A stretch of DNA of 64,000 bases from Eubacteriaceae bacterium (GTDB lineage Bacteria > Bacillota > Clostridia > Oscillospirales > Acutalibacteraceae): the NCBI GenBank assembly GCA_021770095.1, contig JAETRQ010000004.1, forward strand, positions 94,998-158,997, in the 5' to 3' direction. This document shows positions 3,294 to 53,822 of this stretch, piece by piece. The notes under the pieces are model-generated. The model was not told the origin of the DNA, ran no database searches, and was given only the letters and a program-made list of their open reading frames with translations. Positions within the stretch are counted from its first letter, which is position 1. Each line of letters opens with the position of its first letter. A program made the translations under genes and the position numbers.

Positions 3294-6200
3294 TTATTCA
3301 ATTGATGTTGAAACTTTATATGGGGTGTTTTCTTCATTCACTGAATACTTTGTAACAGAAGATGTATCTTTGTTAATTGCAGATTCGATATAGTTCAATC
3401 CGTATCCGCTTCCGACAACATCTTTCTGTTTGTTAAGAGTTTCATCCCAATAGGACTTTGCATCAGCATCTAATGTTGTTCTTAATCCAAGACTGAGCGT
3501 ATCCAAACCTGTTGATATTTCTCCAAAATATTTTGCAGTTGATCGGTTTTCTTTAATCAGGTTATTTGTGCTGTTTACCAATTGAGGAACGAAAGCATCA
3601 CTTATTATCTGATCAGGTGCATTGAAACCCGTTTTTGTAATATTATTAACAGGATCGTTACCGCAATAATTGAAAAGATTTGAGTTATATACGCTGCTCA
3701 TATCTTCTGTAAGTGTCGTAGGTTCACTTGCATTAATAAATCTTCCCCAAGCTGGTGAATAATATCTCTTCTGACCATAATATAAGCCAGTTTCGACATC
3801 ATATATATATCCCTTGAAACCTTGTTCTACGCTGATGAATATTCCACTTAAATACATTGATATTACCAATGCAATTCCGAACGCCTGAAGTATATCCTGC
3901 CACCATACACCTGTAGATTCAAATTCATCATACATTTCCTTAACAAATGTACCCATATAGGTTGGTGTCATATTTCCATAAGCATCATATGACATAGATA
4001 TAATTACTTTTTCACTCGGATCATATATTTCAGTTATATTGCCTTGACCATCTTTAACGAAAGTGTAATTTGCAGACTGATCCCAATCCATAGCTTTTAC
4101 AACATCATTAATGGATGCGTAAATGGGATTGTTTTTTAGATTACCTTCATTTGCAACAACGCAAACACCAACTATATCATTATTGTTATAGATAATCTTT
4201 ACGGTCTTATCATAATAAAGAACTTTATCATTACTTGATGAGCCTTCAGGAGGATTACCATAAAACTTTGCTCTGTAACCGGTAATAATATCGCCGTCCC
4301 AAATGTATTCTATACTTGATGTTGGGACAGTATCACGCTTGTTTTCATAATAAGTTTTAGAAGTGCGTTTTCCGTCACCGTCATATGTATATTTATAAAT
4401 GCTATTTCCATCGCAGAATGCTGTTAAAAGATCTCCATTCCAGGTCATATAACCGGTAATACTTGAGTATCCCATACCGCTTCCCGAATATTCTAAGGGA
4501 TTTCCTGCTTCATCATAAGTTATGCGGTGTCTATTATAACTTGTAAGATAGTCAGTCATTCCGTTTGACTTGTATTCAAAAGGCGTTATTGTACCATTTT
4601 TCGTTGGCGTAAATGTTAATGTATCAGAACTATAATTATATGAATAGTCATCACTGGTTAAATTTTCATAAGTGACTTTTTTAGAAATATTTCCGCCTTC
4701 ATTGAAATAATATCTTATTGCAGTATGAGTTTCGGGGTTGACTTCTAATGAAATCTGACCACCTTCGTCATATTGATAATAACGAACTAAATCTCCTTCG
4801 TTATATGCATAAGAAGTCTTGTTTGCCGGAGCAAGAGCAATATTATTTGTTGATTTCTTAAATACAGATGTTACTCTGCCGACATTATCATATTTATAGC
4901 TCCATTCTGCTGATATACGAGTATTCTCATATTTTTCAGGCAAAATTTTATTAGACCTTTTTGCAACCTTAGTTTCGTAATGAGAAACTAAATTTGTTTG
5001 TCTGTTGTTATTACCATTAATATATTCTGTGCTGGAGGTCAGTTTGTAATGTGTATTCTTGTCGGTATTACCTTTGTTTTCTACAGATGTGCTCATTGTT
5101 CGCTCAAAAGTATCTAAAACTGTTTCTGCTTTTACAATAGGTCCCTTTGTAAGCGATACGGTATATGAATCTTTTACGGTAGTTGTTGTCTTATCTTTTG
5201 ATTCATTTGATGATTGTGAATAAGAAAATGATGTGCCGAAAAGATTTATTCTGCTTCCTGTATTTGAATAAACCGTTGTTCCATTCTTCTTAACAGTACA
5301 TCCTCTGTTTGTATAAGTAGTAACTGTATTTGAAACTTCATCTTTCATTTCTGCTACAGAACCGTCGTCATTATATTTATAGGAATATACATAAGTTTCT
5401 TTTTCGTCACCTGATTTACCGTTGTCATAAACTGTTTTGGTAATGTTGCTGCCATCATATTCATAAACAATACTTGAGCCATTGCCGAAGATTACTTTTC
5501 CTACATTGTCAAGATTGTATTCATATGACATAGAGTAATCAATATTCGCATTTTCTTCTGCAGATTCCTTAACAATTACATTTTCAATTTTACCATTTTT
5601 GTTATATGTTAATTCATAAAGACAACCATTATGATAAATTGAAGAGATTCTGTCATTATTATCATATGAATATTCAACAGTCTGATTTATTGTATCGCCT
5701 TCGGCAGTAGTAATTGCTTGCTGAACAGAAGTTAATGCGCCTATACCACTATAAGCATACTGTGTATTTTTTGAAGCATCGGTATTTTTACCTTTTGATG
5801 TAAGCAAACCACTGTTGCAATCATAATTGTAATATGTTACTTTGCCTGCTTCCTCAACCTGTGATTTATAATGCGTATTACTGTCATATTCATAGTGTTT
5901 ACCGAGTGTTTTATCTCCGGTCTGTATTTTTATGATATCTGTGATTTGTCCGTATTCATTTCTGACAATATCATATTTGGGAAGACCCGGCTCAGGATCA
6001 ATAGGTGGAGCATTATCTATAGTTGCTACATACATTTTTAAATCGTCAAAGTAGCATTCTCCGGGCATATTCAAACTATTAATTTCAACTCTTACTTTAG
6101 AAATGGTTGATGGGATAGTAATGACACATTTTGATGTCTGCCAAGCATTAACAATGTTATAATCAAAATATGTTTCACCTACAAGTGTACCACTTGCTGC

Positions 6201-30149: not shown

Positions 30150-30749
30150 TTGCATGGCTATTTTTTAAAAAACATTGGTATAATATTGCGTACAAATTTT
30201 GATGACTGTACGCAGAAAGTTGGTAAGCCGTTGTCTAAAGAAAAAATTGCAAAAACTTCTGATTTTAAAAATGTGGGACTTACAAATTATGACATTGCAA
30301 AATTGTGCAAAGATGATGTTATCGAGAGAATACAAAATGGCTTTTACCAACTTCCTAATAATTACAATATAAGTGAAGAACAGCTAATATCAAATTTGTT
30401 ACCTTATGGAACAGTTTGCGACGAATCGGCTTTGTTTCATTATGGATACAGTGACTTTGCTCCAAGAGAATAGGCGATAGCAGTTCCTCGAACTTACAGA
30501 AACCAAGTTTCAAATATCCAAGAAATACCTATTAAAACGTATTATGTTCAAAATAATATAATTAAACTCGGAAAAGCAATAGGTGATTTTAAAGGCATAA
30601 CACTTCTTGTTTACGACTACGAAAGGACTATTTGTGACTACTTCAAATATCGTACAAAGCTTGATAGTAAAACATTTTATAAAGCACTTAATGCATATGT
30701 TTTGGACGATAAAATGATTAACATTATAAAAGTATTGTTTAATATATAA
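30150..30749 (+). pseudogene. AbiEi-like antitoxin gene with in-frame TAG
   Basis: ...SKEKIAKTSDFKNVGLTNYDIAKLCKDDVIERIQNGFYQLPNN...GYSDFAPRE*AIAVPRTYRNQ...; same frame continues after TAG at 30471-30473 to TAA at 30749. Confidence 0.65.
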
Positions 30750-30814
30750 CTCCTTTATACTTTGTAAATTTGGCAAACAATTATTATGCTTATTAAAAAG
30801 TTCACTCATTTAAA

Positions 30815-32419
30815 TTATAGAAGTGGCGTATCATTATCTTGCTTACGATTACATTTTATTACACGTAGAAAAACATTTCGCATAAGATTAATGCTTGTTA
30901 AAATAGCCTCTCCTTGATTTAAATTTTTCACTTGCTTAAACGAATATTCATCTAAGTAATTTTTAATTGCTATAATTTCATCATTATGTGTTAATCGATG
31001 TATTAACATAGTTCCAACTTGTCCCAATAAAACTGGAGACACATCTTTTGGGGTTTGTGATGTCAAAAACAAAAAAATGCCTTTTTTTCTGCCTTCTCTA
31101 GCTACAAGTGTTAACCCTTTATGAAACTCTTCTTCAGAATATTGAGATTTAGTATATCTATGCACTTCATCTATAAAGAAAATAAATGGAATAATATCTT
31201 TTTTTGAAATAACATAATTACATATAAGGTCAATAATCATTCCACCAATTCCTTCCGATATTCCTAGTGATGATGTGTTTATATACAAACTGGTATTAGG
31301 TGTATGTATAAATGAGTCTATTTTATCTAAAAGGTTATAATTGTGAGAATTATTAAAAAAATCAAATAAACTTGTATTACTCATTTGATATGTTACTTTT
31401 TGAATAAGATAACTATTTGAATTTGCTCTGAATGAATCATGCTCATAAGTATCTCCTTTTCTAGATTCTGATACAGATTCTTGAGCGATTTGCTCCGATA
31501 ACAGCGATATATCAAAATCCGTATCTCTATTACTTACTGTAGCCAATTTCTGTTGCAATTGTGCAATTTCCTGTCCTGATTTCACTAAGCAAGAATTTTG
31601 ACCTTCTTTATGTTGGTAACGAAGAGAACGAATTGCTTCTGCAAGGACTGCACTTTGAGTATTACTATTTGTTTCAAAAAGCATAGACCATTGCTGCATT
31701 GTAAGCTTTCCAGGTGAAATAGTTGTATCTATCCCTAAGTTCAACTTTATTACATTTTGTTCAGAAAATGAATCATTATATTCACCTGTTGGATCAATAA
31801 TCAAGGTTTTTTTGTTGGCAATAATAGCTTTATCTAATATTGATAACGCTGATGTTGACTTTCCACTATTGGTTGCACCAACTACAAATAAATGATGATC
31901 AAATAATGTGCTTGGTTTTAATGATACCTCTTCCTCACACATATCAAGATATATCGCAAACGGTTGAAGTTTAGACTCTTGTGAATTCGTTACTTCAATT
32001 GATTCTAAATACTTTTGAAGAACCATCTTATTAGCTAGATAAACCTTTTCAGAAACACCAACCGTCATAAATTCGGGCAATTTAAATTTCCTATCGTGAT
32101 GTGTCATAACACCAATAATATCTATATTTATTTCTGGATTTACTGTTTCTACTTTACTATAATTTATAGAATCGTGCAATTTATCAGAAGATAAAACTTT
32201 TGTTTGAAATACTTCTCCAAGAAAAATCCCACGAACAGAATCAACAACCACTAAATAATTAATAGTATTTGGAATCAATGAATCGTTATTAATTTTTCTA
32301 TATGATAACAATGATAAATTTTCTACTTGAGCAATACTATTATCTCTATATACTTGCGAAATCCTTCCTAAATAATAATTATTTTTATCCATTTTATCAT
32401 AAAAAGAATCAATCGTCAT
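30815..32419 (-). CDS. HerA-like ATPase of a SIR2-HerA defence pair
   Basis: HHLFVVGATNSGKSTSALSIL (Walker A), IIPFIFFIDEVHRYTKS (Walker B), HKGLTLVAREGRKKGIFLFLTSQTPKDVSPVLL. Confidence 0.88.
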   Translation of the reverse strand: MTIDSFYDKMDKNNYYLGRISQVYRDNSIAQVENLSLLSYRKINNDSLIPNTINYLVVVDSVRGIFLGEVFQTKVLSSDKLHDSINYSKVETVNPEINIDIIGVMTHHDRKFKLPEFMTVGVSEKVYLANKMVLQKYLESIEVTNSQESKLQPFAIYLDMCEEEVSLKPSTLFDHHLFVVGATNSGKSTSALSILDKAIIANKKTLIIDPTGEYNDSFSEQNVIKLNLGIDTTISPGKLTMQQWSMLFETNSNTQSAVLAEAIRSLRYQHKEGQNSCLVKSGQEIAQLQQKLATVSNRDTDFDISLLSEQIAQESVSESRKGDTYEHDSFRANSNSYLIQKVTYQMSNTSLFDFFNNSHNYNLLDKIDSFIHTPNTSLYINTSSLGISEGIGGMIIDLICNYVISKKDIIPFIFFIDEVHRYTKSQYSEEEFHKGLTLVAREGRKKGIFLFLTSQTPKDVSPVLLGQVGTMLIHRLTHNDEIIAIKNYLDEYSFKQVKNLNQGEAILTSINLMRNVFLRVIKCNRKQDNDTPLL

Positions 32420-33602
32420 AATATTCTCCTAAATAATCCATTAAATCAGTATTCATTGTTGCTTTTAAAAAAGCAACTTTGTAATTATGTTGCATCAATT
32501 CTTCAAGTTTTTTCCAATTATCATTATCCTGATTAATGCTAAAATCTGTAATTAATGTTGCCAAACTTTTATTGTGTAATATTGCTTGTACAATCATTTG
32601 TGAGATATGATTATCAGCAAAACTAAATCCAGCAGTAATTAATAATGTATTTGGTCTTTTCAATAATTCTTGAAATTTTGTAAATAACTCAAAATATGGT
32701 TCTTGATAACTCTGCATATATTTATCTGAACTTGGAAAAATCATAATAGGAGTGCTAACATCACATTTTTCCTTTCTATATATTTTTTTACCATTACGTT
32801 CCCAAGTTAAAGAACCATGTAATTTAAGTAAATTAATTATATTTTTCTTATATTCCATTTCTCTAGTTTTTACATTTTCAATATCTTTTACAAGATTCCA
32901 TTCGTACATATCACTATCAAAATGAGGTCTATGTGTAAATGTAAAACCATCCATTACTGTATATTCTATACTATCCGCTGCATCTTCAATTAATGTATCA
33001 TAGTTGGTCGTTACTAAAGTTAATTTACTCGGCGCTCTAACAATATGAGATATTGTATTAATAAAAGCGGAATGCTTCATACAGGTATTATCATATTCAT
33101 AATTTGTGTTAAATACAATCAATTCGAAAATCTTATTTTTTGATTTGACATATTTATCATAAATTTCATTCGACACATACTTTTCAAACGAAATTAAATA
33201 GGATAAAAAATCTTCTAAATTAAATAATGGATTTAATTTATTTTCTTCTATTTCAACTGCAACGGAATATTTACATAAGTCAGCCAATTCCTGAAGAGAA
33301 AAACATTCAGATTCTTCTTTGAGCGAATTATTTATCGATTCTGCTAACATTGCAACAGTCTTTCCATAACGAGAATCTATTTCATTGTTTGCACACACAA
33401 CAGAAGCACCTGCACCAACCAAAATAATTATGTTGCTGTAACTTTGATGAATAAAATTTGACGTTTCCTTTTGAATATAACTTTTAAATAATGTAAAATC
33501 TATATCCTCACCATTTTCATTTAATAATTTAATATCATTTTCAAAAAAATTTTCATTTTCACATGAATATTTAATATTTGAAGAAACAAAATGTTCTATC
33601 AT
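32409..33602 (-). CDS. SIR2-family protein of a SIR2-HerA defence pair
   Basis: IIILVGAGASVVCAN, VTTNYDTLIEDAAD, LLKLHGSLTWERNG, LLITAGFSFADNHI; 11-nt overlap with herA. Confidence 0.88.
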   Translation of the reverse strand: MIEHFVSSNIKYSCENENFFENDIKLLNENGEDIDFTLFKSYIQKETSNFIHQSYSNIIILVGAGASVVCANNEIDSRYGKTVAMLAESINNSLKEESECFSLQELADLCKYSVAVEIEENKLNPLFNLEDFLSYLISFEKYVSNEIYDKYVKSKNKIFELIVFNTNYEYDNTCMKHSAFINTISHIVRAPSKLTLVTTNYDTLIEDAADSIEYTVMDGFTFTHRPHFDSDMYEWNLVKDIENVKTREMEYKKNIINLLKLHGSLTWERNGKKIYRKEKCDVSTPIMIFPSSDKYMQSYQEPYFELFTKFQELLKRPNTLLITAGFSFADNHISQMIVQAILHNKSLATLITDFSINQDNDNWKKLEELMQHNYKVAFLKATMNTDLMDYLGEYYDD

Positions 33603-33618
33603 TAATCAACTTACCTCC

Positions 33619-34365
33619 TTATTTTCTAAACACAAACAAATACTCGTGTGCAATCAGCAAAAAATTATATTTCACGCTATTTGTTTTCCAATATCCCGTT
33701 GCTTTGCAATTGTGTTGCTCTTTGATAATCAATTCTTTAAGAGTAAATCCGGTATCTTGGAAAATTTTCATAACATCAAAAGACATTGGTATCATACAAC
33801 CCTTTTGTCTTGTATCACCCATAAGTACAGCACAAAATTTATCTTTTTTCAAAACACGGTAGCTCTCTGCAGCTACCTTTTTCATTTCTTCAAGAAAACA
33901 TTTTACTTTAAGATGCGATAAATCTTCTTCAATATCTTCGCTATATTTAATGATGTCAGCATAGGGCGGATGTGTGCAAATCAGGTCAATACTTTCATCC
34001 GAAAGAAAATCTAAATTTCTTGCATCGCCCTTACGGATATAAACTTTTCCGTTTGCGCCTTCATGCTCAAAATCTATTTTTTCTTTGCACCTATCAAGTG
34101 CAACATCATTGACATCAACACCGATAATATCACGGTTCAAAAGCTTTGCTTCAACGAGAGTTGTTCCACCACCTGCAAATTGGTCAAGAACGACATCGCC
34201 CTCTTTTGAATATCTTAATATAATATTTCGAGGAATATACGGAGACCAATTTCCACGCCATTTTGCATCGTGAGTTGCCCAATCGCCACGCTTTGGGAAA
34301 GACCAATGTGTTGTCATTTCCAACTCAAAATCATCAGGTTCCCATTTTGTAATTTTCTTTGCCAT
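33619..34365 (-). CDS. DNA methyltransferase (DpnA-like position in a DpnII-type system)
   Basis: VVLDQFAGGGTTLVEAKLLNRDIIGVDVN; LICTHPPYADIIKYS. Confidence 0.85.
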   Translation of the reverse strand: MAKKITKWEPDDFELEMTTHWSFPKRGDWATHDAKWRGNWSPYIPRNIILRYSKEGDVVLDQFAGGGTTLVEAKLLNRDIIGVDVNDVALDRCKEKIDFEHEGANGKVYIRKGDARNLDFLSDESIDLICTHPPYADIIKYSEDIEEDLSHLKVKCFLEEMKKVAAESYRVLKKDKFCAVLMGDTRQKGCMIPMSFDVMKIFQDTGFTLKELIIKEQHNCKATGYWKTNSVKYNFLLIAHEYLFVFRK

Positions 34366-35231
34366 TATTTAAAAACCTCTGTAATTATGCCATTTTCCAT
34401 ATCGTTGATATTGTAAATGTGTTCCATAACATCAAAGGTTTCTTCAAGATTATGGCGAGCACTTGTCCAACCTTTTCCGTCGGTAAACCAAACAAAAGTA
34501 AAACCGTCTATTGTGTCGGTTTCGAGAGCGAGAGTTTTGTAGCTGCGTGCTGTTTCGTTTAATTTACTTCCGCCACTGCCGTAAAAATTCGTTTCGATAC
34601 CGTAAATCATATTCGGTGTTTTAACAACATAATCAAAACGCTTTTCTGTTTTTCCTTGATTAGATATGGCTGAAAGGTCAATGCCCCATTTATCGGTAAT
34701 CTGATGAATATACATTTCTTTGAAATATGACTCATCTTTGACAAAACCTGCTTTTTGAATAAAACTTTCAACTAAGTTTTCCATTAAATGACCGCCACGA
34801 TTTTTACGACCGTTGGAGTCAAGACCTGTTTCAACACCTGTTGCATAATCCACCAAATTGTTGACTATATGATTTTCTATTAAATCATATAGTCCGGTTT
34901 TACGCATAAATACCTCATATTGCTCGACCGAAAGATTAGGCTTTTTAAAGTTATATGTATAGTCTCCATCACCATCAATCGCATATATTTCATTTGACCT
35001 AACCGCCAAAAGCAAAGGTATGCATTTCAAAGTTTCCGGATATTTATTAACTAAATTTTCAAAATCCTGCTCAATATTTTTAGAGCCGATAAGCGAATTT
35101 AATATGTTAAGTTCAACTTTGATATTATCGACATTTCTGTGAACTTTATCAAAATCTATGTAATAACCATAGTCTGCGATACTGTCACGGAATCCTAATA
35201 ACCATTCGCTAAAATCTCGCATTTTACACAC
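34365..35231 (-). CDS. DpnII/MboI-family type II restriction endonuclease (GATC)
   Basis: FSEWLLGFRDSIADYGYYIDF; SNGRKNRGGHLMENLVESFIQKAGF; IYGIETNFYGSGGSKLNETARSYK. Confidence 0.85.
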   Translation of the reverse strand: MCKMRDFSEWLLGFRDSIADYGYYIDFDKVHRNVDNIKVELNILNSLIGSKNIEQDFENLVNKYPETLKCIPLLLAVRSNEIYAIDGDGDYTYNFKKPNLSVEQYEVFMRKTGLYDLIENHIVNNLVDYATGVETGLDSNGRKNRGGHLMENLVESFIQKAGFVKDESYFKEMYIHQITDKWGIDLSAISNQGKTEKRFDYVVKTPNMIYGIETNFYGSGGSKLNETARSYKTLALETDTIDGFTFVWFTDGKGWTSARHNLEETFDVMEHIYNINDMENGIITEVFK

Positions 35232-35248
35232 TCCAATGTAATTAAAAA

Positions 35249-35503
35249 TTATAAACTTCTTTTTCTGCCTTCGTCATATCCTTCGTCGTATGCACCTTTG
35301 GCATCCTTATGGCGTACAGTCCCCGCCTGACTATACGGTAAATGCGAAAGATCTGTTTTTCTAGCATTTCCAGCCATACCATCTCGTAATCCTTCCTCAT
35401 ACGCACAGCCGGCACAAATATGGCGATCACCGTGCTGATTATCTTGTGCCTCAGGAAGTGAATTATATTCATTTAAATAACGATGGTCTTTTTTGCAAAT
35501 CAT
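35249..35503 (-). CDS. Small uncharacterised Cys-containing protein in the R-M operon
   Basis: MICKKDHRYLNEYNSLPEAQDNQHGDRHICAGCAYEEGLRDGMAG...; 17-20 nt gaps to flanking genes. Confidence 0.6.
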   Translation of the reverse strand: MICKKDHRYLNEYNSLPEAQDNQHGDRHICAGCAYEEGLRDGMAGNARKTDLSHLPYSQAGTVRHKDAKGAYDEGYDEGRKRSL

Positions 35504-35523
35504 AAATTTTTTCCTCCTTTATC

Positions 35524-36594
35524 TTAGAAATTACTAATAAGCAATTCTTTAATTTTTCCTCTTGCTTCACTATTGCAGTTAATCATTCGAGTTGCTTCAA
35601 CTCGCTTAATTCTATGTGCTGAATAAATGTTATCAAAGAAATCATCGTCTGTATTTGAGTTCTTCGGATCGGAATTACTAATTACAATTTTAGCTCCTTT
35701 TTTGTCCATATCATCAACAAATCGTGCAAGTTCAATCTGTTCCTCATCGTTGAACAAATTCTCGGTATATGCCGTAAAGCTTGCCGTATCTGTAATAGGT
35801 CTGTATGGCGGATCAAAATAAACAAAGGTATTTTCATCAATAAAGTTAGCTGACTCTCTGTAATCTCCGCATACGATGGTAACTCTATGCAATTTTTCCG
35901 ATACTGCTCTGAGATTTTTTTCATCACAAATCATCGGATTTTTGTATGCTCCCATAGGAACATTGAATAAACCTTTTTTGTTCACACGGTATAATCCGTT
36001 AAAACAGGTTTTGTTCAAAAAAATCATCAATGCCGCTTTTTCAAGATTTATATTTTTATCACCGTTGACTTTTAGTTCATTAAATCTGCTACGTTTATTA
36101 AGATAGTATCCTTTTCTATGTTCTGTATCAAGCGGTATAAAATCTTTCTGTATTGCAGAAAGTATTTCAATTAAATCATCAATATTATCTCTGATAACAC
36201 GATAAGTATTGATAAGTTCAGCGTTAATGTCACTGATATAAACTTCATCTAAATCATATTTACTAAGTATATCAAACAAAACAGCCCCGCCACCAACAAA
36301 CGGCTCAGCATATTTGGTTATTTTGCCGTTTTCAAAAGGGTAGTAGCACTCAATTTCTTTAATAAGCTGGCCCTTACCGCCTGCCCATTTCAAAAAGGGT
36401 TTAACTGCTTTTTCTTCGGTTCGATTATATCGTGTACTCCTTGCATCTGTAGGCTTTTCTGCGGAAGAAGGAATAATCCACATATTACCGACCATAGTTG
36501 CTTCTTTAATTCTTTGTTCAGAGCACAAAACTGCCACTCTTCTTTGGGAAATGCCCCATTTATCAGCGGCTTCTCTTGCAGACATAAATTCCAT
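35524..36594 (-). CDS. Dam-family N6-adenine methyltransferase with N-terminal HTH domain
   Basis: N-term MSAREAADKWGISQRRVAVLCSEQRIKEATMVGNMWIIPSSAEKP; then PFLKWAGGKGQLI, EPFVGGGAVLFDI, VYFDPPYRPI. Confidence 0.9.
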   Translation of the reverse strand: MEFMSAREAADKWGISQRRVAVLCSEQRIKEATMVGNMWIIPSSAEKPTDARSTRYNRTEEKAVKPFLKWAGGKGQLIKEIECYYPFENGKITKYAEPFVGGGAVLFDILSKYDLDEVYISDINAELINTYRVIRDNIDDLIEILSAIQKDFIPLDTEHRKGYYLNKRSRFNELKVNGDKNINLEKAALMIFLNKTCFNGLYRVNKKGLFNVPMGAYKNPMICDEKNLRAVSEKLHRVTIVCGDYRESANFIDENTFVYFDPPYRPITDTASFTAYTENLFNDEEQIELARFVDDMDKKGAKIVISNSDPKNSNTDDDFFDNIYSAHRIKRVEATRMINCNSEARGKIKELLISNF

Positions 36595-36737
36595 AACAAG
36601 CTCCTATTCCTGTACTGTGTGTCATTTACTATATTATATTCTAAATCTCGAATAATAGCAATATCATATTTTAAGGTAGATGTAAATTTTCAGAAACGAA
36701 TAACAGCGGCAGGGATTGCTCCCTGCCGTCGTTGTGT

Positions 36738-37115
36738 TTATACCGTGTAAATCAGTTCTGCATTTACAATTTCCATTGCACGATTACGAATATTATTCAT
36801 TTTCTGTACCCACAACATCATATCGGTTGCTTTGAGTTTTTCTGTAACACCTTCTTGTTTTGCTAATTGCTTAATTAGTGTATCGTACATTTCTGCTGCT
36901 CTGACATCAACATCATGCAAGTATGAATTTAGTTTACATTGAGTAAGCAGGGTTGTATAAAACGCCGGTTTATATTGTTTAATATACTCCTTATGTTTTC
37001 TGCCCCAATAGCCTATTTCATAATTTGTATCGGTTGATACAAGATTTGGAATATACACATCACCTACAAGTGTATAGCTAATGCCTGTAATTTTGTCTGT
37101 TATATATTTTTTCAT
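36738..37115 (-). CDS. TnpV-family transposon-encoded protein
   Basis: TNYEIGYWGRKHKEYIKQYKPAFYTTLLTQCKLNSYLHDVDVRAAEMY; clear paralog of 43124-43495. Confidence 0.75.
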   Translation of the reverse strand: MKKYITDKITGISYTLVGDVYIPNLVSTDTNYEIGYWGRKHKEYIKQYKPAFYTTLLTQCKLNSYLHDVDVRAAEMYDTLIKQLAKQEGVTEKLKATDMMLWVQKMNNIRNRAMEIVNAELIYTV

Positions 37116-37119
37116 AAAA

Positions 37120-38250
37120 TCACCTATACCTTTCTTTATTTCTCGGTTGAGACTGTTTTAGAATTTCATCAACATTTTTCGGTCCGATTATTTTGCGAAG
37201 TTTGCTATATTGAGCAAGCTTTTTATCTGCTCTGTGAGCCATCTTGCTGAATGATTTTGCATCTTTTTTATAATTTTCGACATCATTTTGAAGCCTCCCG
37301 ACAATTCTGTTTGCATTAAAAGCTCGTGCCTCTTCTTTAAAGCATCTTACAATCAATTGTTTTACCATTTGCTTTAGCTTATTGAACATCGGTTCAATCA
37401 ATTTCTTATATGCATTTGCCGACATAAACGGCTTAGGTTCGGGTAAAACGAATTTGTCATCAAAACCACTTTCATCAATTTCCTGCAATTCATTATTGCA
37501 ATTTTGATAACATTCAATTTCATTTTTTAGCATATCAACCTTTTCTTCAAGCTGTATAACTTCTTTTTGCCGTTCTTTCTTTTTATAATCGAGAACCGAT
37601 AAATGCTCTCTGCTTGTATGCTGATTTTCCCATTCAATATTAAATTTAAGCATAGATTTAGCCAATGATTCTTTTTCGGAATTCACCCATAATGCCCATT
37701 CTGTTTCTTCTCTGCCGTTGCCGACAAAGCCTTGATTTGCAAGAGCCTGTTTTAACGACACTCTTGTATCAAGTCCACGCTTGCTTCCGGTTGTAAATGG
37801 AACAAAATCAATATGCAAATGCGGTGTTGCCTCGTCCAAGTGCATATGGGCGGAGAACACACGCAAATACGGATTGCGTTTTTGAAAAGTGCTAACATAA
37901 TCATCAAGTGCTTTTTCTGCAAGTTCGGCTGTTTGCTTATCGATTCCAAAATCGTTTTTATTGCCGATTTGAACTACTATTTCATGAAATGGTTTTTCCT
38001 GTTTACCGTTGCAAATTTTTTCATAATAGTTTTTTACTTTTCTGTCATTGCGAGTTTGTTTGGAGTTATAACGCTCAACAGCTTCGTCAAACAATTCATG
38101 ATAAACATTTTTTATATCGTCATTTATATACTCTTTGTTCAGGTGCGACCTTTCGGGATTTGTATTCGGGGTATTAAATATCCTACTGTTATGCTTTAGC
38201 GCACCTTTACCAAGTTCAATACTTATGCTTGCTAAATATATAATCGTCAC
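37120..38250 (-). CDS. MobV-family relaxase (Pre/Mob)
   Basis: ALKHNSRIFNTPNTNPERSHLN, HEIVVQIGNKNDFG, FSAHMHLDEATPHLHIDFVPF. Confidence 0.9.
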   Translation of the reverse strand: MTIIYLASISIELGKGALKHNSRIFNTPNTNPERSHLNKEYINDDIKNVYHELFDEAVERYNSKQTRNDRKVKNYYEKICNGKQEKPFHEIVVQIGNKNDFGIDKQTAELAEKALDDYVSTFQKRNPYLRVFSAHMHLDEATPHLHIDFVPFTTGSKRGLDTRVSLKQALANQGFVGNGREETEWALWVNSEKESLAKSMLKFNIEWENQHTSREHLSVLDYKKKERQKEVIQLEEKVDMLKNEIECYQNCNNELQEIDESGFDDKFVLPEPKPFMSANAYKKLIEPMFNKLKQMVKQLIVRCFKEEARAFNANRIVGRLQNDVENYKKDAKSFSKMAHRADKKLAQYSKLRKIIGPKNVDEILKQSQPRNKERYR

Positions 38251-38426: not shown

Positions 38427-39548
38427 CTATTCTATTATCGACAATGATATTATTTTACCTGAATGCTTTCGCTCAAACTTATATTCAATGTTATAATCGT
38501 TTAATAACACAGAATGAAGTGCATTTAAACTACGGCTCAATACATTTGGAGTAATATCCAATTTTGTTTCTTCTATCAATTGAGTTGCCGTACCTTGCCA
38601 AACCTTACAGGCAGAAACAAAAGGCACAATTTTATCGAGTATTTTATCTTTCGGCTTATCGAATAAATCAACATCGGATTTTACAAAACCCCAAGTGCAA
38701 TTTGCCGAGCGTTCAATTTGAATACATTGTTCGGGCAAATCCCTGCCGGTAACGGAAATAGTAGCTTTGTTCTTGCCTCGTTTTTCCTTTTGCATAACAA
38801 ATGCTCCGTCAGCGGCACCAAGCAATCCGTTTGTACCTGAAATTGTGTCAAACACATCATCGGAATCTTGCTTTCTTGTGTGATGAACAACAAGCAAACA
38901 CACCTTGAATCTATCGGCAAATCTTTTAAGAATTTCAATAATTCCATAATCACTTGAATAATTCATTTTGTCGTTTGAGCTTTCCCTAATCATCTGTAAA
39001 GTGTCAATTATAATTAAAGATACGCCTTGATTTCTTGCCAAAATATATTCAAGTTGACCTTCAAGACCGTGACCCGCCTTGTTTGAGAATGTTGAAATTA
39101 TTATATTATCCGGATTTGGGGGAACACCAAACATATTATAATAACGAGATACTATTCGAGGCTCTCTGTCTTCAAGAGCAAGATAAACTACCTTGCCCTG
39201 ATTGACCTTTTTATCCCACAAATCCAAACCGTTGCTGACATGATGTGCTATTTGCAACATTGCAAACGATTTACCGATTTTAGGTGCACCGACAAATAAG
39301 TACATTCCCGGATAAAGCAAATCTTTAATTATCGGCTGCTTAATATCATCTGATTTATCAAAAAGCTCACCTAAAGTAAAAGTTCTTATAAAATTAGGGT
39401 TACTTTCCTCTCTGAATTCTGCAAACAAATCATCACTATTGCAAAAATCATCTTCATCGGTTATAATATTGTTGCTATTTATTAGTGACTGCTTTTCATC
39501 TGTACCGGCAGATGTTTCAAAAGCAGTCTTTTTTATTTTCTCGTTCAT
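38427..39548 (-). CDS. RepA-like AAA ATPase
   Basis: YLFVGAPKIGKSFAMLQIAHHVSNG; VSLIIIDTLQMIRES; LLVVHHTRKQDSDD. Confidence 0.85.
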   Translation of the reverse strand: MNEKIKKTAFETSAGTDEKQSLINSNNIITDEDDFCNSDDLFAEFREESNPNFIRTFTLGELFDKSDDIKQPIIKDLLYPGMYLFVGAPKIGKSFAMLQIAHHVSNGLDLWDKKVNQGKVVYLALEDREPRIVSRYYNMFGVPPNPDNIIISTFSNKAGHGLEGQLEYILARNQGVSLIIIDTLQMIRESSNDKMNYSSDYGIIEILKRFADRFKVCLLVVHHTRKQDSDDVFDTISGTNGLLGAADGAFVMQKEKRGKNKATISVTGRDLPEQCIQIERSANCTWGFVKSDVDLFDKPKDKILDKIVPFVSACKVWQGTATQLIEETKLDITPNVLSRSLNALHSVLLNDYNIEYKFERKHSGKIISLSIIE

Positions 39549-39553
39549 TATAA

Positions 39554-39871
39554 TTACCCTCCCATTTCTCTTAAAATGGCAGACATATAACAAATAAGAC
39601 AAAGTGTTTCTTCGCTAATTTCGGAGTCTTTTTCTATTCTGCAAAGTTCGCTGTAAACATTATTTAACTTGTCCCTCAAACTTTTATAAACTCTCGGACC
39701 GGGATTAACTGTTATTTCCGTTCTCAGCACCCTGCCGATAATATAATCTTGCTTATTAAGTCCCGAAACAGAAACATAATCGTCAAGAAGCTTTGCCTCT
39801 TGGGGCGACATACGAAACGATACGATTTTGTTTCGCAATCTGCCTTTTGAGTCAAGATTTTTCGCCGACAT
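39554..39871 (-). CDS. MobC-like mobilization accessory protein
   Basis: RNKIVSFRMSPQEAKLLDDYVSVSGLNKQDYIIGRVL ribbon-helix-helix style. Confidence 0.55.
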   Translation of the reverse strand: MSAKNLDSKGRLRNKIVSFRMSPQEAKLLDDYVSVSGLNKQDYIIGRVLRTEITVNPGPRVYKSLRDKLNNVYSELCRIEKDSEISEETLCLICYMSAILREMGG

Positions 39872-40949
39872 TATCAACACCCCTTTCAATATTCAGTTTA
39901 TTTGCAATTTCGCTTTGCTTGTTAGGAAACATATGGGCATATCTAAAAGTAATATCTATACTTTCGTGACCTACACGATTTGCAATATCGACTGCACTAA
40001 AGCCCATATCAATCAAAAGCGAAACGTGAGAATGCCTTAAATCGTGGATACGAATTCTTTTTACATTTGCTAATTTACACCCTCTTTCCATTTCATGATG
40101 CATATAGCTTTTTGTAATTTGAAATATTCTGTCGTCGTCTTCAATACCATAAATACTATGAATATAGTCCTGCATTTCTTCGGCAAGAAATGTGGGCATT
40201 TTTACTGTTCGCTTACTTTTCGGTGTCTTTGGGTCTGTAATAACATCCCTACAATCAAATCTTTGATAAGATTTATTTATGCGTACGGTTTCCTTTTGAA
40301 AGTCAAAATCAGCAGGAGTTAATGCAAGCATCTCGCCGAGGCGTAAGCCACACCAATACAGCATTTCAAATGCATAAAACGACACAGGTTTATCCATCAT
40401 CACATCTGCAAATTTAAGATATTCTTCTTTTGTCCAAAAGAGCATTTCTTTGTCACTTTCTTTTTTGCCTATATTTCCTGCCTTTGCCGCCGGATTGTTT
40501 CTTAAATCATAATATCTTACTGCATGATTAAAAATTGCACTGAGTTGATTATGAATTGATTTAAGATAAGTCGGTGAATAGGCTTTGTCACTCGGAGAAC
40601 GATAAGCCATCATTTCATTTTGCCACGCTCGTATGTCGGACGGTTTTATTTCGTTAATCTTCTTATTCTTAAAATAAGGTAAAATCTTTTTGTCAATAAT
40701 AGCATTCTTTCCTATCCAGGTATGCTCCTTAATTCTATCCTTCATATCTGCCTTGTATATGCCAACAAAGGTTTCAAAATTCATACTAAGGTCGCCTGCT
40801 TGCTTTGAGAGAAATTCTCTTTCCCATTCTTGTGCATCACGCTTAGTTTTAAATCCACGCTTAACCTTACGAGATTGATTGTTTTCCCAATCTTTATAGT
40901 AAACAGAAACATACCACGTGCCATTATCTTGATTTTTGTAAACAGGCAT
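39852..40949 (-). CDS. Tyrosine recombinase/integrase
   Basis: YWCGLRLGEMLALTPADFDF, IHDLRHSHVSLLIDMGFSAVDIANRVGHESIDITFRYAHM. Confidence 0.95.
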   Translation of the reverse strand: MPVYKNQDNGTWYVSVYYKDWENNQSRKVKRGFKTKRDAQEWEREFLSKQAGDLSMNFETFVGIYKADMKDRIKEHTWIGKNAIIDKKILPYFKNKKINEIKPSDIRAWQNEMMAYRSPSDKAYSPTYLKSIHNQLSAIFNHAVRYYDLRNNPAAKAGNIGKKESDKEMLFWTKEEYLKFADVMMDKPVSFYAFEMLYWCGLRLGEMLALTPADFDFQKETVRINKSYQRFDCRDVITDPKTPKSKRTVKMPTFLAEEMQDYIHSIYGIEDDDRIFQITKSYMHHEMERGCKLANVKRIRIHDLRHSHVSLLIDMGFSAVDIANRVGHESIDITFRYAHMFPNKQSEIANKLNIERGVDNVGEKS

Positions 40950-52713: not shown

Positions 52714-53694
52714 TTACTCCCACTCAATTGTGCCGCAGGGCTTTGGTGTGAGGTCAAAGAGAACTCTGTTAACGCCTTCAACTTCATTTGTAATGCGGTC
52801 TGTAATGTGTTGAAGGAGTTCGAACGGAACATTTTCAACCGTTGCAGTCATTGCATCAACTGTATTTACCGCACGGAGAATAACAGGATAAGCATAGGTT
52901 CGTTTACCGTCCTTTACACCGACTGATTTGAATTCAGGAACAGCGGTGAAATACTGCCATACTTTGCCTTCAAGACCATTCTTTGCAAATTCTTCACGGA
53001 GAATTGCATCGGATTCACGAACACATTCAAGGCGATCACGTGTGATTGCACCAAGACAACGAACACCGAGTCCCGGACCGGGGAACGGCTGACGGTATAC
53101 CATACCATCAGGAAGACCGAGCGCATTGCCGACAATGCGGACTTCATCTTTAAATAGGAACTTGAGCGGCTCAACAAGTTCAAACTGCAAATCTTCAGGC
53201 AGTCCGCCAACATTGTGGTGTGCCTTTACACCGTCACTTTCAATAATATCAGGATAAATTGTACCTTGTGCAAGGAACTCGATGCCTTCCTGTTTTCTTG
53301 CTTCCTCTTCAAAAACACGAATAAATTCAGCACCAATAATCTTACGCTTTTGCTCAGGTTCTGCAACGCCTGCAAGTTTGTCCAAAAAGCGGTCAACAGC
53401 ATCAACATAAACAAGATTTGCTTCCATCTGATTACGGAAAACCTCAACAACCTGTTCAGGCTCACCTTTACGGAGCAATCCGTGATTAACATGCACACAT
53501 ACAAGTTGCTTGCCGATTGCTTTAATCAGCAAGGCTGCGACAACAGAGGAATCCACGCCGCCTGAAAGTGCAAGGAGAACCTTTTTGTCTCCTACCTGTT
53601 TTTGAATTTCAGCAACCTGCTCAGCAATAAATGCATCTGCAAGTTCTTTTGTGCTTATACGTACCATTGATTCGGGTCTCTTGTTATTATCCAT
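52714..53694 (-). CDS. GMP synthase ATP-pyrophosphatase/dimerisation part without GATase domain (GuaAb-type)
   Basis: [49 protein letters not shown]-term CGTIEWE; SD TCCGGAGGAA precedes start 53694. Confidence 0.9.
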
Positions 53695-53822
53695 TTTAAA
53701 TTCCTCCGGATAAAAATAAATTAATTCTGTATTTTCAGTATAACATAAACTTAATTTTGACGTCAATATACAATCAGAAAGAATAAACTCCTCTGCAATG
53801 AATTACAGAGGAGCAAATTTAT

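Follow-up and report, generated by a model that had tools for sequence, protein, structure and literature searches.

The studied SIR2-HerA relatives (GAO_19, Nezha) hydrolyse NAD+ and require HerA (PMC11559045), and DpnII/MboI type II restriction-modification (RM) systems carry a Dam-family methylase, a second methylase and the DpnII endonuclease in one operon (dpnM-dpnA-dpnB). That RM is coupled to suicide effectors, Sir2 with type I RM among them, was hypothesised in 2012 (PMC3506569), and in PrrC-EcoPrrI, a type I RM system with an embedded anticodon nuclease, the RM locus itself encodes an effector of the suicide type. Backup effectors alongside the restriction-like BREX system were surveyed in 2026 (PMC12839542), and a 2024 report on the S. 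thermophilus CR3 island (Kelleher et al., PMC11514479) places SIR2/HerA pairs between or downstream of RM systems and describes protection against phage by pairs cloned without RM. Here we analysed a stretch of 64,000 nucleotides from a Eubacteriaceae bacterium (contig JAETRQ010000004.1; hereafter the window), in which a DpnII-type RM system is followed on the minus strand, without an intervening gene, by a SIR2-HerA pair. We consider it probable that the pair is a portable cassette at the end of a DpnII RM operon on a mobilizable element, linked to that operon at the level of expression and serving as a second, abortive line of defence.

The window pair shares with described SIR2-HerA systems the overlapping sir2-herA genes, the catalytic Asn and His of SIR2, the Walker A and B motifs of HerA and a sequence match to the complexes 8j4u, 8w9l and 8yhx, but it represents a divergent clade and is attached to an RM operon. 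The three enzymes of DpnII/MboI systems are likewise present, although in the order M1-R-M2, with a helix-turn-helix (HTH) domain in M1, a different, permuted HPPY methylase as M2 and an extra 84-aa gene. The CR3 island is also a composite locus with sir2-herA beside or inside RM; unlike the window's element it is chromosomal, and the passages of its report that were consulted mention no DpnII combination. PrrC is kept inactive by RM proteins, whereas the likeness of the window to PrrC-EcoPrrI lies in gene arrangement, and the BREX core genes are absent at the window locus. In the literature searched, mostly without subscription papers, we came upon no description of DpnII combined with SIR2-HerA, of partners being exchanged between RM types or of RM scars in front of sir2.

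A six-gene unit and its age

Six tightly packed genes run on the minus strand from 36594 to 30815 in the order HTH-Dam methylase, 84-aa Cys protein, DpnII-family endonuclease, 248-aa methylase, SIR2 and HerA (Table 1). These co-directional genes had been described in an earlier note on this DNA, and their order and every coordinate were confirmed by mechanically called open reading frames (ORFs) and by family searches; the intergenic gaps of 20, 17, -1, 16 and -11 nt also proved exact, given a DpnII start at GTG 35231. The start is more probably ATG 35222, which fits the Pfam DpnII model and the homologues better and widens the gap to the 84-aa gene to 26 nt. The AGGAGG Shine-Dalgarno sequence of sir2 had been located correctly and shares one base, the last of the TAA stop, with the methylase gene. 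The 'fusing' of RM to SIR2-HerA has to be dropped, since there is no fused protein.

The adjacency of sir2 and herA on one strand is that of a SIR2-HerA system, and the start of herA overlaps sir2 by 11 nt, an overlap kept in relatives. SIR2 residues N200 (TTNYD) and H262 (HGSLTW), which align with the same motifs of the PDB chains, are invariant in the alignment of relatives, as are the HerA Walker A motif GATNSGKST (G181, T183, S185-T189) and the Walker B residues D417 and E418. The GC content shifts at the methylase/sir2 junction, from ~34-37% in the RM part to 26-30% in SIR2-HerA. Low GC is intrinsic to the cassette in nearly all relatives, so that the shift gives no date for the join, and on the same ground the low GC of SIR2-HerA was discarded as proof of a recent separate acquisition.

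Table 1. Features of the window, and RM partners at related SIR2-HerA loci (window positions, or locus for partners)
Feature	Position or locus	Strand	Basis
HerA-family ATPase/translocase (DUF87), 534 aa	30815..32419	-	PF01935 1e-15; PADLOC HerA 2e-53; PDB HerA chains
SIR2-family (SIR2_2) predicted NADase, 397 aa	32409..33602	-	PADLOC SIR2 9e-50; PDB SIR2-HerA chains 8j4u, 8yhx, 8w9l
AGGAGG Shine-Dalgarno of sir2	33614..33619	-	sequence; one-base overlap with last base of methylase TAA stop
Second DNA methylase (M2), N6_N4, 248 aa	33619..34365	-	PADLOC MTase_II PDLC03376 1e-154
DpnII-family restriction endonuclease, 285 aa, predicted GATC	34365..35222 (alternative GTG start 35231)	-	PF04556 8e-111, full length
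84-aa Cys-rich protein without known family	35249..35503	-	ORF with Shine-Dalgarno
Dam-family D12 N6-adenine methylase, N-terminal HTH_17, 356 aa, first operon gene	35524..36594	-	TIGR00571 3.4e-88; PF02086 7e-64; PF12728 6e-4; DPPY motif
Promoter-like TTGCTA-17-TATAAT	36633..36661	-	consensus scan only; 39 nt before first gene (HTH-methylase)
GC-rich inverted repeat, possible bidirectional terminator, between tnpV and defence operon	36707..36728	-	pattern match
TnpV, element backbone	36738..37115	-	PF14198 1e-42
MobV-family relaxase, element backbone	37120..38250	-	PF01076 8e-23; NF041497 below cutoff
RepA-like AAA_25 ATPase, element backbone	38427..39602	-	PF13481 3e-23
NikA-like mobilization protein	39554..39889	-	PF21983 7e-9
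Tyrosine integrase	39852..40949	-	PF00589, PF14659, PF14657
Partner: C5 methylase + AlwI/FokI-like nuclease + Vsr	L016 (contig C16, same genome)		family search
Partner: C5 methylase + LlaJI-like	L048		family search
Partner: type I	L009, L010, L023		family search; L009, L010 also annotation
Partner: type III	L022, L030, L049, L098		family search
Partner: type ISP	L034, L040, L042-L044		family search
Partner: PLD-helicase with IIG-like methylase	L011, L012		family search and annotation
Partner: McrC	L026		family search

A search for SIR2 relatives over 85,462 species genomes returned 33 close loci (L018-L050). One of them, the Clostridiaceae contig L018, has element genes followed by HTH-Dam, DpnII, a different small gene, methylase, SIR2 and HerA, with ~81% DNA identity to the window across the methylase-SIR2-HerA junction; a related DNA-level junction in an independent contig makes the packing more than chance. 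Two Lachnospiraceae contigs, L019 and L020, are without RM and carry a decayed methylase tail just before sir2, whose AGGAGG Shine-Dalgarno sequence is kept in both. The methylase ends with ...VKYNFLLIAHEYLFVFRK*GG in the window and with ...AKYNF*PIVHEYLFMRRK*GG in L019, and L020 holds a frame-shifted version; the tail in L019 reaches E=0.05 by blastx, its identification resting mainly on the DNA alignment. Judging from these alignments, the junction, intact in L018 and present as scars in L019 and L020, predates this genome, and the RM part was lost in the lineages of L019 and L020. Uniqueness of the juxtaposition to this genome, which by the earlier note would have spoken against its reading, is thereby refuted. 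DpnII-SIR2-HerA is nevertheless no conserved system in itself, as SIR2-HerA is found at none of 14 other DpnII loci of the host family and only one other intact pair was encountered; since the DpnII-specific pairing is this rare, the repeating unit is any RM system plus SIR2-HerA.

Recurrence behind RM systems, partner exchange and RM loss

In total 44 loci were examined: besides the window these were the genome's own second copy, relatives on plasmids, phages and viral contigs, and contigs of other genomes. A single-protein scan of viral contigs gave no match, and an alignment-based scan found one close relative, L098. Several loci lie near contig ends, and with three duplicates and three contig-end cases set aside 38 could be evaluated upstream. 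In 19 of these 38, sir2 is immediately preceded on its own strand by an RM gene, at gaps from -17 to 157 nt that are mostly below 80 nt, and four further loci have an RM scar only. Tree rows are not independent, hence cluster and tree counts are given as well: with SIR2 clustered at 90% identity, 19 of 35 clusters have an intact RM system, 3 a scar only and 13 neither, and at 60% identity RM is found in 8 of 13 clusters. Where both flanks were available (30 loci), RM lay upstream only in 12, downstream only in 0 and on both sides in 1 (sign test p=0.0005). As a control, Abi_2 abortive-infection loci of the host family showed RM upstream in 0 of ~18 cases (Fisher p=1.4e-4), a rough comparison that involves different taxa and a BLAST against a limited RM set with inspection of the first residues.

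SIR2-HerA also occurs within RM operons. It lies inside the type III operon of L030 (Mod-SIR2-HerA-Res), and L049 reads Mod-SIR2-HerA with Res two genes further on. In other phyla, the distant relatives L096 (Sulfurimonas) and L081 (Marinobacter) show Mod-SIR2-HerA-Res and HsdS-SIR2-HerA-HsdM, respectively; L079, L080 and L082 have HsdS directly upstream and L078 GmrSD, and most other distant relatives are without an RM neighbour. Plain co-location in a defence island, where both kinds of system accumulate on mobile elements and neither order nor strand carries meaning, would account for the presence of SIR2-HerA and RM on one small mobilizable element, for the other or absent defence neighbours of half of the relatives, and for the V. 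cholerae island in which SIR2-herA and a type II RM system are separate items (PMC11559045). We regard it as improbable in view of the 12 to 0 asymmetry, the short gaps, the empty Abi_2 control and the finding that, in bacteria unrelated to one another, the pair is inserted into a single RM operon between its subunit genes. It looks as if evolution has chosen this pairing repeatedly and not just once.

The RM partners, which cover types I, II (DpnII, AlwI/FokI-like, LlaJI-like), III, ISP and IV, are exchanged. A SIR2 tree of 42 rows calls for at least 14 changes of partner label, and a single clostridial clade (support 100/99, 13 rows) has partners of six types, namely DpnII, LlaJI-like, C5/Vsr, type I, type III and McrC. 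Where the partners differ (L016/L021, L026/L027, L016/L048, L023/L016), DNA homology between the cassettes begins near the SIR2 start, at about -29 to +22 nt. RM was lost and SIR2-HerA kept at least three times, with DpnII in L019/L020, ISP in L039/L041 and, separately, ISP in L013; the converse loss is seen in L009, where HerA is truncated beside an insertion sequence and the type I RM system is intact.

These losses bear on a dedicated coupling of the PrrC-PrrI kind, in which SIR2-HerA would be restrained or triggered by the restriction process and NAD+ destroyed when restriction fails. That the cassette recurs 3' of or within RM operons of many types would suit such a coupling, and HerA translocases, as is established for the family, act on DNA; anti-restriction proteins, restriction breaks giving DNA ends to HerA and modified phage DNA are the proposed triggers, and a link of immunity to suicide, Sir2 with type I RM included, has been put forward before (PMC3506569). 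We hold it unlikely all the same, because retention of the effector after RM loss (L013, L019/L020, L039/L041) argues against obligate dependence on RM, many loci are without RM, and partners as chemically different as these argue against one specific protein contact. The published protection by SIR2-HerA cloned without RM (PMC11514479) points the same way, and together with the RM losses it indicates that SIR2-HerA is probably an autonomous cassette. A broader relation, which we find doubtful though somewhat less so, would make this SIR2-HerA clade a general partner of restriction that senses a shared product or failure (DNA ends, anti-restriction attack or unrestricted replicating DNA), and sensing of this kind would explain the convergent 3' and internal placement with every RM type.

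Under the portable-cassette explanation that we prefer, the cassette would move as a unit starting near the SIR2 ribosome-binding site and would repeatedly join RM operons of whatever type, at their 3' end or at times within them, gaining the promoter and regulation of the operon and travelling with it. In the window all six genes would most likely be read from a promoter before the HTH-methylase gene, the RM part would cut unmethylated GATC DNA upon entry, and SIR2-HerA would form a later, abortive NAD+-hydrolysing layer, as in the studied relatives; the suggested role as a backup when restriction is evaded is plausible. The link would be one of expression and joint transfer, in which RM enzymes are not needed for SIR2-HerA to be retained. 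Co-expression is likely on account of the operon-like packing and the repeated joining of the cassette to many RM types, and a consensus scan found no convincing minus-strand terminator between methylase and sir2. The coordinated expression that the earlier note had read from the packing is upheld to this extent, but not as a DpnII-specific pairing, which the 0 of 14 count makes rare.

Several observations weigh against this explanation. Neither RM nor an RM scar lies upstream in ~40% of the relatives, and promoter-like matches within the operon occur in a consensus scan at the background rate for this AT-rich DNA, so that sir2 may have a promoter of its own inside the operon. The scores of 103.7 of 500 bits for SIR2 and 66.7 of 800 bits for HerA are far under the NCBI equivalog cut-offs and place the pair in a divergent homologous clade, apart from NCBI's named equivalogs. 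The anatomy of the locus, the recurrence and asymmetry, the exchange of partners and the RM losses are observed; co-transcription, the enzyme activities, the second-line role and the order of action are what we infer, and the window's own SIR2-HerA would, by virtue of its homology, be an NADase conferring phage resistance, as a 12:6 complex. The clade supplies natural replicates for the 2012 coupling hypothesis, with one effector cassette, many RM partners and several RM losses, and a comparison of linked, unlinked and scarred loci could separate joint expression alone from a real sensing link.

The DpnII operon and its relatives in the host family

The RM part is predicted to target GATC, which it would methylate and cleave. 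Its leading Dam-family methylase exceeds the TIGR00571 cutoff of 114.85 bits. In M2, motif I precedes motif IV, a permuted order, and the catalytic motif is HPPY; its identification as DpnA was ruled out by this motif order. It matches DpnA structures weakly and partially at best, and it is located after the DpnII gene, not between M and R, the position of DpnA. All 14 other DpnII loci, collected from 300 host-family genomes, carry Dam and DpnII, and most also a second methylase; an M2-type methylase follows dpnII in most of them. Two kinds of operon can be recognised in the family, Dam-DpnII-HPPY methylase in most cases and Dam-DpnA-like-DpnII in L138, L143 and L145, with a DPPY DpnA-like gene (short in L145) between M and R. 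In the DpnII operons of this family, the HPPY methylase seems to take the place of DpnA.

The HTH domain at the head of the operon raises the question of establishment control, in which a leading RM regulator would delay the toxic downstream genes after conjugation and so spare new hosts the NADase. In the window, L016 and L048 the RM operon begins with an HTH domain or a small HTH-like gene (Cro-like HTH in the latter two), and the loci are on mobilizable elements. We nonetheless judge this very unlikely: the HTH domain is missing from several other DpnII loci, the type I, III and ISP partners are without a known controller here, and SIR2-HerA retained after RM loss can persist without the regulator.

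The 84-aa Cys protein had no Pfam, PADLOC or NCBIfam match, its gene is absent from the other DpnII loci examined, and no second copy occurred in 150 host-family genomes, which excluded it as a conserved RM component. A different small gene lies within the DpnII operon of each of three related elements (window 35249-35503, L132 7172-7717, L018 7701-8237), between HTH-Dam and DpnII or between DpnII and M2, with no known family where tested. L132 combines the same element backbone and the same kind of DpnII operon with unrelated genes in the SIR2-HerA position, where 351-aa and 109-aa proteins without PADLOC match are encoded (4116-5511, minus strand).

The mobile element and neighbouring genes

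The genes upstream of the operon belong to a small integrative mobilizable element, whose backbone they form. The guaA gene follows downstream of the operon. Two further genomes of this genus (L178, L179) have DNA resembling the element's integrase/regulator region (~40.5-41.8 kb) beside the guaA 3' end, which suggests that the integrase family targets guaA. A second GuaA-like gene (52714-53766, minus strand), which comprises the C-terminal part only and is ~54% identical, is found in many genomes of the genus. A repeat at 29.94 kb was considered as an att site, but it matches two copies lying 42 bp from each other near the integrase and so may be arm-type.

Next to herA, a 99-aa ORF (30510-30809) was rejected as a seventh gene, being mostly antisense to an AbiEi pseudogene. 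This AbiEi-like antitoxin gene (30150-30746, plus strand) has an in-frame stop at ~30471-30473, and its first part matches PADLOC AbiEi at 3e-17.

The second SIR2-HerA pair of the same genome (L016, G000:C16, 792-8290), with a SIR2 73% identical to that of the window, resides in a different element, which has a MobV-like relaxase and a TnpV-like gene. In streptococcal integrative elements (L014, L035-L037) the cassette overlaps an epsilon/zeta-type toxin gene by 4 nt, in the place of RM. A Schlafen AlbA_2/HATPase_c_4 protein is encoded 3' of herA in several loci (L016, L048, L080) and may belong to the cassette as an optional third component.

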